Source: Tenggerimyces flavus (lineage in GTDB: Bacteria > Actinomycetota > Actinomycetes > Propionibacteriales > Actinopolymorphaceae). Taken from it: a stretch of DNA of 64,000 nucleotides. Location: NCBI RefSeq assembly GCF_016907715.1, contig NZ_JAFBCM010000001.1:6944001-7008000 (forward strand). The letters are read 5' to 3'. The notes under the pieces are model-generated. The model had not been told where the DNA came from and did not search any database. It saw nothing but the letters and a program-made list of their open reading frames with translations. Shown piece after piece: positions 2,111 through 4,794 of this stretch (position 1 is the stretch's first letter; each line of letters begins with the position of its first letter). The position numbers and the translations under genes were made by a program.

Positions 2111-2180
2111 TTGCTTTGCCCTGCTGTGCTTGGGCAAGTAGCTGGGCGGGCTGTGGCGGCGGTCGAGTGTGGTGGCCGGT
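2111..2180. repeat. Imperfect direct repeat, copy 2
   Basis: Second copy of the unit at 1920-1990. The first block is identical over 23 nt (2111-2133). The second (2148-2180) differs by one base over 33 nt. Copy 2 runs straight into the left arm of the inverted repeat at 2174-2278. Confidence 0.7.
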
Positions 2181-2278
2181 CCGGGGCGCGTCAAGGGCGC
2201 CTCTCTGGGGCGCTTCGCGGAGGAGAGAGGCGTCGCTTCGCGACCGCTTTGCGGCCCTTGACTCGCCCCGGCCCGGCC
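2174..2278. repeat. 105-nt multi-branched inverted repeat
   Basis: Left arm 2174-2197 and right arm 2255-2278 pair at 22 of 24 positions. Inside are a 9-bp stem (2198-2206 with 2224-2232) and a 4-bp stem (CCGC/GCGG, 2244-2254). Folded, it gives one long closing stem and two inner stems. It lies about 190 nt upstream of the 13E12-type HNH gene. It could be a structured RNA, a REP-like palindromic element or a strong bidirectional terminator; sequence alone does not decide. Confidence 0.65.
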
Positions 2279-2464: not shown

Positions 2465-3718
2465 ATGGAATCGACCACCCGCTCGAACACCACCGGCACC
2501 GCCGATGGTGTCTCGGCGTGGTCGATGTCCGATGACCAACTCACCACCGCACTCCTCGACAACGCCACCCAGCTGAACCGGCTCGAGGGCCGCCAGCTCG
2601 AACTGATCCGCGAGGCCGACGCCCGCAACCTCGCCGTCACCGCTGGTGCGGCGAACACCGCGCAGTGGGTCGCCGGTCGGCTTCGGGTCCCGACTGCGGA
2701 GGCCGGGGCGATGGTGAAACTGGCCTCTCATCTCGACGCGGAGTTGCCGGCCACCGCGCAAGCGTTGGCTAGCGGCGAGATTTCTGTTCCGCACGCACGA
2801 GTGATCTCCCGGGTCGTGACGATGCTGCCCTCCCACATCGCCACCCCGGAACTCCGCTCCGAGGTGGAGGCGACCCTGCTGAAGAACGCCGCCATCTTCG
2901 ACCCGAAGGTCTTGTCGAAGGTCGGGAACAGGCTCTTGGAGACCGTCGCGCCGGATCTTGCTGACCAGGTCCTGGAGTTGAAGCTCAAACAAGAAGAGGC
3001 CAGCGCCGAACGGGACCGGTTCCTCCGCATGTCCTTCGACGCCACGTCAGGGACGTGGCGGGTCACCGCCCGGCTCCCCAAACTCGTCGGGGAACGCCTC
3101 AAGCTGGTTCTCGACCCGCTGGCCGCGCCGCAGCCCGGACCCGACGGCCGCGACACCCGCCTCCCCGAACAACGCAACGTCGACGCAATGGACGAGGCCT
3201 GCCGCCGACTCCTCGCCGAGCGGCTCGTCCCCTCCCATGGCGGGAACCCCACCCAACTGGTCGTCACCCTCACCAACACCGGTGGACGGACCCTGCACAC
3301 CGGGATCGAACTGTCCCGCAAACTCGTCGACCAACTCATGTGCGAAGCGGACCGGGCATTCTTGGTCAAGCCCGAGGACCAGCCCGGCCGCGTCACACTG
3401 CTGACCGACACCCAACAGCGACTCTTCCAAGGCAAACTCCGCCGCATCCTCGAACTCCGCGACGGCGGCTGCGCGTTCCCCGGCTGCGACCGCCCACCAG
3501 GCTGGTGCCACGCCCACCACCTCACCCCGTGGAGCCAGGGCGGACCCACCACCCGCGACAACGGAGTCCTACTCTGCGGCTACCACCACCGCCTCATCCA
3601 CCAAGGCGCCTGGCAAGTCCGCATCGCACGAGACGGATTACCCGAGTTCTTACCCCCCGACTGGATCGACCCCCACCAACAACCACTCCGCAACCACCGC
3701 CTCACCCCAGCCGCCTAG
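2465..3718 (+). CDS. DUF222/HNH endonuclease (13E12 repeat family)
   Basis: A 417-residue protein with the two-part layout of the REP13E12 family: a long helical DUF222 region (about residues 20-300) and a C-terminal HNH nuclease domain (about 330-380). The HNH motif is complete: Cys pairs around CAFPGCDRPP, then CHAHHLTPW, then the DNGVLLCGYHHRLIH block with the metal-binding His and Asn. These proteins are repeated many times in actinobacterial genomes and are suspected to be mobile or homing-type nucleases; the exact role is unknown. The start is fixed by a TAGAAT box 6 nt upstream. A strong hairpin follows the stop. The flanking repeats at 1920-2278 may belong to the same repeated unit. 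Confidence 0.9.
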   Translation: MESTTRSNTTGTADGVSAWSMSDDQLTTALLDNATQLNRLEGRQLELIREADARNLAVTAGAANTAQWVAGRLRVPTAEAGAMVKLASHLDAELPATAQALASGEISVPHARVISRVVTMLPSHIATPELRSEVEATLLKNAAIFDPKVLSKVGNRLLETVAPDLADQVLELKLKQEEASAERDRFLRMSFDATSGTWRVTARLPKLVGERLKLVLDPLAAPQPGPDGRDTRLPEQRNVDAMDEACRRLLAERLVPSHGGNPTQLVVTLTNTGGRTLHTGIELSRKLVDQLMCEADRAFLVKPEDQPGRVTLLTDTQQRLFQGKLRRILELRDGGCAFPGCDRPPGWCHAHHLTPWSQGGPTTRDNGVLLCGYHHRLIHQGAWQVRIARDGLPEFLPPDWIDPHQQPLRNHRLTPAA

Positions 3719-3737
3719 AGCAGCGGCCGGGGCCGGG

Positions 3738-4749: not shown

Positions 4750-4794
4750 ACTAACTGGTTAGCCAGCAAGCTACCTGCTCGCTAACCAGTTAGT
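4750..4794. promoter_or_regulatory. Paired TetR operator between reductase and regulator
   Basis: ACTAACTGGTTAGC (4750-4763) and GCTAACCAGTTAGT (4781-4794) are exact reverse complements. Each arm is itself a palindrome of the form CTAAC-N2-GTTAG (4751-4762 and 4782-4793), as expected of a TetR dimer site. The two centres are 31 bp apart, about three helical turns, so two dimers could bind the same face of the DNA and control both divergent genes. Confidence 0.75.

Follow-up and report, generated by a model that had tools for sequence, protein, structure and literature searches.

A Branched Palindrome Family Linked to DUF222-HNH Genes in Tenggerimyces flavus and Its Possible Pairing with the HNH Protein

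Introduction

A long, branched palindrome precedes a DUF222-HNH gene of the 13E12 type in Tenggerimyces flavus, and its position raises the question of whether it belongs to the gene, and if so, in what capacity. The locus lies in a stretch of 64,000 nt (contig NZ_JAFBCM010000001.1, positions 6,944,001 to 7,008,000), referred to here as the window, and coordinates are those of the window unless stated otherwise. A sequence-only reading of this DNA had proposed that the palindrome is a non-coding part of the mobile 13E12 unit on which the HNH nuclease acts, or else a strong terminator.

Structure of the Palindrome

The features of the locus are, from left to right:

1892–1998, + strand: upstream duplicate of the left module, closing with a collapsed 18-nt palindrome remnant
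1981–1998 (18 nt): the collapsed palindrome remnant, GGTGGCCGGTTGGCCACC, at the end of the first repeat copy
2110–2173, + strand: left module, about 64 nt conserved 5′ of the palindrome in DUF222-linked copies
2174–2278, no strand assigned: branched palindrome, recognised by fold, inverted repeat and covariation
2174–2198 and 2254–2278: palindrome arms, 25 nt each, 23 of 25 positions pairing
2170–2198 and 2254–2282: extended arms, 29 nt, 93% complementary
2199–2231, 2232–2244 and 2245–2253: three inner hairpins
2279–2464, + strand: promoter-bearing linker; gene-less copies share about 140 nt of it
2453–2458, + strand: TAGAAT promoter motif, 6 nt 5′ of the ATG, leaderless type
2465–3718, + strand: DUF222-HNH gene, 417 aa, 13E12 type
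3705–3733, no strand assigned, bounds approximate: imperfect inverted repeat across the stop codon, the right end of the conserved unit

The coordinates first read, and the palindrome itself, are borne out (z about −6.5 on both strands). The + strand of 2174–2278 folds with −78.9 kcal/mol (z −6.41) and the − strand with −77.0 kcal/mol (z −6.95), and in neither case was any of 200 shuffles as good. The pairing of the outer arms also stands, with the original figure of 22 pairs in 24 positions corrected to 23 in 25; the two unpaired positions are T.C and C.T mismatches. The interior is different from what had been described: three hairpins, not two stems, lie inside the arms, and the junction is therefore four-way, not three-way. 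Rfam was scanned with the initial 5 kb of the window and gave no fitting family, only a chance-level match.

The 190-nt direct repeat previously seen upstream is real as repetition, but is not a single repeat of that length; it consists of one conserved block of 51 nt (82%) and another of 40 nt (95%), each recurring at a spacing of 190–191 nt. At another host locus (L031), the left module occurs in tandem with a period of about 44 nt, some 200 nt to the left of the palindrome. Elsewhere in the window, a 19-nt inverted repeat (4750–4794, 95% complementary) lies between two ORFs that we take to be aldo/keto reductase-like and TetR-like, and is possibly an operator.

Copies in the Host Genome and Linkage to DUF222 Genes

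A search for other copies had been suggested as a check; the palindrome is one of at least 76 copies read in the host genome, 73 of them distinct. The exact core pattern has 69 host matches and its reversed control has none. The copy number is a lower bound: of 124 candidates in the first own-genome search, 40 were scored, and an additional copy (L353) was met beyond the 76.

The DUF222 family is likewise multi-copy, as had been supposed, with 27 host matches of the 13E12 type. In 23 of these 27 genes a palindrome is found no more than 400 nt upstream and on the same strand, which supports the proposal that the palindrome belongs to the 13E12/DUF222 unit, as a regular component. The distance from palindrome to start codon is 183–186 nt in 22 units and 171 nt in a divergent one (L085), and that from palindrome to DUF222 match is 268–273 nt and 295 nt, respectively. 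Being fixed in this way upstream of the genes, the palindrome is therefore part of a repeated unit of about 1.6 kb. Two of the four genes without it (L086 and L087) are distant DUF222 genes. The other two (L083 and L084) are members of the same two subfamilies as the linked genes and have intact ORFs, and their palindromes have apparently been lost by deletion. The units L084 and L085 are closely similar, one of them without the palindrome, and a deletion-like junction lies at a CGGA repeat.

Conservation of the gene-linked unit begins about 64 nt 5′ of the palindrome and ceases about 14 nt 3′ of the stop codon; these ends were mapped by loss of conservation only, no target-site duplication or empty site being demonstrable with a set of relatives that contained no second genome of the genus. 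The inverted repeat at the right end is of the type CCCCGGCCGCC-stop-GCGGCGGCCGGGG, and a loose pattern for it matches 17 of the 23 units. Directly 3′ of the DUF222 stop, at the same junction, a 414-aa ORF is present in three of the 23 subfamily-1 units (L027, L034 and L025); judging by its sequence type, we take it to be an IS110-like transposase, placed as if it targeted the right-end inverted repeat.

The remaining 53 copies are gene-less. The sequence they share runs from about 25 nt before the palindrome to about 140 nt after it, beyond which they differ. A second conserved hairpin, GAATGAAGGGCACCTTCATTC-AATAGGTT-CGAATGAAGGTGCCCTTCATTC, is found about 150 nt downstream in 39 of the 53, and closes most of them; further hairpin families were located near gene-less copies. 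In the 52 copies whose edges were read by eye, with the exception of two divergent ones, the arms are preceded by a conserved TGGT and followed by ACC, and no GTAG or CGTC tag was seen. None of the 23 gene-linked palindromes has a second known copy closer than 6 kb.

The neighbourhoods of the copies were also inspected for a mobilising gene. A Y1/RAYT transposase was rejected as a candidate, no match to PF01797 being present in the host genome. DUF222 apart, no gene beside the copies recurs as a mobiliser would: the recurrent neighbours of gene-less copies, named by eye, are an ABC transporter type (10 loci) and two regulator types (six loci each), which look like large paralogous families, and the remainder form small clusters of three loci.

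The DUF222-HNH Protein

The gene downstream of the palindrome had been called DUF222/HNH, and its product matches PF02720 (E 1e-35) and PF01844 (E 6.8e-6) above cut-off. Pfam lists DUF222, HNH and HNH_2 only and reports no RuvC domain. The 23 subfamily-1 paralogues have a median dN of 0.060, dS of 0.48 and dN/dS of 0.13 over 253 pairs, and all 23 retain the HNH motif. These ratios indicate that the genes are under purifying selection.

The HNH domain lies at about residues 335–383. In an AlphaFold2 model built from 42 sequences (mean pLDDT 83.8, pTM 0.55), residues 36–163 align to the DNA-binding domains of Noc and ParB with a Z of 10.3 and an rmsd of 2.2 over 103 residues, and the best 12 structural matches are all Noc, ParB or Spo0J, with the caveat that helical domains may reach middling Z values by chance. 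Foldseek alone gives the ParB match an E of 0.15, and a profile search finds Spo0J/ParB at E 0.18–0.45; the fold match is therefore good, not certain. On this model DUF222 would contain a ParB/Noc-like domain, with the HNH nuclease after it. The sites bound by ParB and Noc are palindromic. For the HNH part, the closest PDB sequence matches are the HNH domains of IscB, and the guided_IscB model scores the protein at 10.7 bits, with a cut-off of 175.

The motif TAGAAT stands 6 nt before the ATG in all 23 subfamily-1 units, and TAGAAT just before an ATG is a leaderless promoter pattern in actinobacteria. Since the palindrome lies upstream of this putative leaderless-type promoter, it is not the 5′ UTR of the DUF222 gene. 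Mismatches of the A.C type in the arms are about as common as G.U (70 of the 73 distinct copies tabulated), so there is no sign of RNA selection on the + strand.

Evolution of the Palindromes

Covariation had been suggested as a check, and the stems do covary. In an alignment of 49 of the copies known when it was built, both-side changed cells number 42, compared with 13.3 in shuffles and 2–23 in slid controls. It is the first inner hairpin that supplies most of this signal, since the arms are nearly invariant; the inner hairpins are variable in sequence and their pairing is kept. Gene-linked and gene-less copies differ by only 3.4% in the arms, compared with 29% in the next 135 nt.

Trees and distances were calculated from 73 of the 76 copies, leaving out two divergent and one truncated. 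In the tree of the right-hand module one label change suffices, the gene-linked copies grouping as a single clade with support 99.5; the inner-hairpin tree needs eight label changes, and a single gene-linked clade is rejected by the AU test (p 0.0007). Gene dS shows no relation to palindrome distance (Mantel r 0.03, p 0.32, n = 22) but is related to linker distance (r 0.32, p 0.0025, n = 22). These comparisons indicate that palindromes have been exchanged between gene-bearing and gene-less contexts, an argument that would weaken to the extent that short, pairing-constrained hairpins show homoplasy.

DUF222 Loci and Related Palindromes in Other Genomes

Among 38 relatives searched, 35 carry DUF222/13E12 repeats. 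Actinopolymorpha alba (G005) has a different palindrome, with 36 pattern matches at up to two mismatches and none in the control. Of the 30 loci read in this species, 13 have a DUF222 gene 69–77 nt downstream on the same strand, three consist of the unit leader without an ORF and 14 are solo; two A. alba units (L147 and L155) are without such a palindrome. A third, different hairpin occurs at about 25 places in another genus (G016), where it is 180–193 nt upstream of two of the 15 DUF222 matches, a third case being doubtful. The arrangement of palindrome and DUF222 gene recurs, then, with different palindromes in A. alba and, weakly, in a third genus.

The arrangement does not seem to be general. 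Upstream inverted repeats scoring at least 13 were found at 8 of 75 named DUF222 loci, compared with 7 of 183 in the background. Among other relatives examined, repeats scoring at least 15 are conspicuous in A. alba, G016 and one gene of G006, and such repeats are absent at the DUF222 genes examined in G002, G003, G007, G017, G025, G032, G033, G034 and G036.

Relatives of the host palindrome itself were also found. In the order, 37 of 391 genomes searched contain a match to its core. At 38 of 40 low-copy loci there is no DUF222 gene in the stretch read, and the other two have a DUF222-like match more than 1 kb away. One genome (G027) has 47 core-pattern matches on the + strand and 51 on the − strand, where one place may count on both strands, and none of its 12 palindrome loci read has a DUF222 gene. 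At the G027 loci L089–L116 the related palindrome forms a MITE-like element whose inverted ends are CACCCGTCCCCCTGA/TCAGGGGGACGGGTG; the loci read there contain no DUF222 partner. At L370–L386, loci from other genomes of the order, a related multi-hairpin palindrome sits between RepSA and integrase genes, in elements of the AICE type.

Possible Functions of the Palindrome

We tentatively favour a REP/REPtron-like pair, in which the DUF222-HNH protein, not a tyrosine transposase, would act on the palindrome. The palindrome would be a DNA-level recognition and recombination site borne by the repeated 13E12-type unit, whose order is left module (about 64 nt), palindrome, promoter, DUF222-HNH gene and right inverted repeat. 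Binding, cleavage and copying are steps that we infer: the protein would bind through its ParB/Noc-like helical domain, the HNH domain would nick or cut the palindrome as duplex, cruciform or single-strand hairpin, and repair off another copy would convert or copy palindromes together with neighbouring modules. The 53 gene-less copies may then be non-autonomous relatives served in trans. For this pairing count the fixed linkage to 23 of the 27 host genes, the conserved fold and arms, the covarying stems, the evidence that palindromes pass between contexts, the purifying selection on the protein and its retained HNH motif, the ParB/Noc-like model, the lack of a Y1/RAYT gene or another recurrent mobiliser in the host, and the A. 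alba loci; of these, it is the model that lends indirect support to an action of the nuclease on the palindrome. Against it count the Foldseek E of 0.15 for the ParB match, the lack of a demonstrable target-site duplication or empty site, the possible homoplasy of short hairpins, the intact ORFs without a palindrome at L083 and L084, the lack of a palindrome at most of the DUF222 genes surveyed elsewhere, and the related palindromes found without DUF222 in other genomes, some of them beside RepSA or integrase genes. A wider version, on which DUF222-HNH (13E12) proteins in general would be selfish nucleases directed to palindromes, seems to us somewhat less probable; the ParB/Noc-like domain would read a lineage-specific palindrome, the HNH domain would nick it, and copying would follow by break-induced conversion.

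Close behind the palindrome–nuclease pair, and a plausible competitor to it, is the explanation that the palindrome is a passenger: an independent REP/MITE-like element that lodged before an ancestral DUF222 gene and was co-amplified by unrelated recombination, the nuclease being inactive on it. The several other hairpin families beside copies, including the second hairpin of the 39 gene-less copies, speak for it, as do the palindromes that exist without DUF222 in G027 and across the order and the A. alba units L147 and L155 that have none. It accounts less readily for the recurrence of the layout in A. alba (13 of 30 loci) and G016 (clearly at 2 of 15 DUF222 matches), where the palindromes are unrelated, for arms much more conserved than the flanking unit sequence, and for the resemblance of the DUF222 model to palindrome-binding proteins.

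The palindrome could alternatively be the remnant of a replication origin, a multi-hairpin site of pSAM2-type elements recognised by the HUH initiator RepSA and spread with them. This is unlikely for the host copies, although the neighbourhood of the relatives speaks for it: a RepSA-type match lies within about 150 nt of the related palindrome at 13 of 20 loci, with an integrase match on the opposite side at 10 of the 20, and all three pattern matches in G016 adjoin its three RepSA genes. For these RepSA-adjacent palindromes the arrangement suggests an origin-like role, and they are candidate replication origins. A covariance model of the host copies scores many of them (46 sources given), which supports kinship only partly because the relatives were pre-selected by a 17-base core, making the scores partly circular. 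The host itself has just two RepSA matches, one with an internal stop; their positions, 233197 and 1768517, are distant from that of the window (6944001), and no such palindrome, nor any strong inverted repeat within 700 nt, is found downstream of either. G027, for all its core matches on both strands, has no RepSA, and 23 host copies are tied to DUF222.

A terminator, the alternative first offered for the locus, or an insulator, ending the transcripts of upstream genes either alone or before the DUF222 gene, fits less well; we consider it more improbable still. The stem is very stable and G+C-rich on both strands, is followed by a T-rich stretch on the + strand in many copies, and stands between the upstream region and the DUF222 promoter. 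By crude gene calls, however, the 53 gene-less copies lie in 17 convergent, 22 codirectional, 13 divergent and one undecided context, and between divergent genes a dedicated terminator is not needed. Termination also leaves the exchange of palindromes and the near-invariant, mismatched arms unexplained.

Least probable is a structured non-coding RNA acting as guide or regulator of the HNH protein, in the manner of IscB and omega RNA: the same-strand position upstream of an HNH gene, the covarying stems and the IscB matches of the protein would suit it, but all 23 of 23 units have the leaderless-type promoter motif 3′ of the structure, Rfam gives no HEARO or omega-RNA match, Pfam reports no RuvC domain, and the balance of A.C-type and G.U mismatches in the arms is no sign of selection on a + strand RNA.

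Comparison with Known Systems

The palindrome–nuclease pair resembles the REP/REPIN-RAYT systems (REPtrons) in its many dispersed extragenic palindromes, a subset of which is tied to one gene family, and in their species specificity. It differs in that the linked gene is DUF222-HNH and not an HUH/Y1 tyrosine transposase, in having one palindrome per gene, upstream and with no GTAG or CGTC tag seen, and in the size of the palindrome (105 nt with three inner hairpins). In IscB/HEARO loci with omega RNA, too, a structured element precedes an HNH gene of the same strand; here no RuvC domain or HEARO RNA match was found and the structure is upstream of a leaderless-type promoter. Elements of the AICE (pSAM2) type with RepSA hold, in relatives of the host, a related multi-hairpin palindrome between RepSA and integrase, whereas the window palindrome adjoins DUF222. 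The protein may share a fold with ParB, Noc and KorB, its predicted helical domain (residues 36–163) aligning with their DNA-binding domain, but its partner domain is HNH.

The gene itself falls in the 13E12/DUF222-HNH class, having DUF222, a C-terminal HNH domain and several genomic copies, and is in this respect like REP13E12 of Mycobacterium tuberculosis, a multi-copy DUF222 and HNH repeat. A 2026 preprint (PMC13061034) describes the REP13E12 repeats as gene-conversion hotspots with undefined function. A palindrome companion of DUF222/13E12 genes, as found here, is not reported for them in the literature searched, which mostly excluded subscription papers. If the wider version holds, DUF222-HNH proteins would form a REPIN-like system with an HNH enzyme at its centre, and the DUF222 family would gain a first function. 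With a cognate palindrome and a domain predicted to bind palindromes, the function of REP13E12 becomes testable by binding and nicking, and, were the pairing real, the tyrosine transposases would be joined by a second kind of enzyme as partners of dispersed bacterial palindromes.
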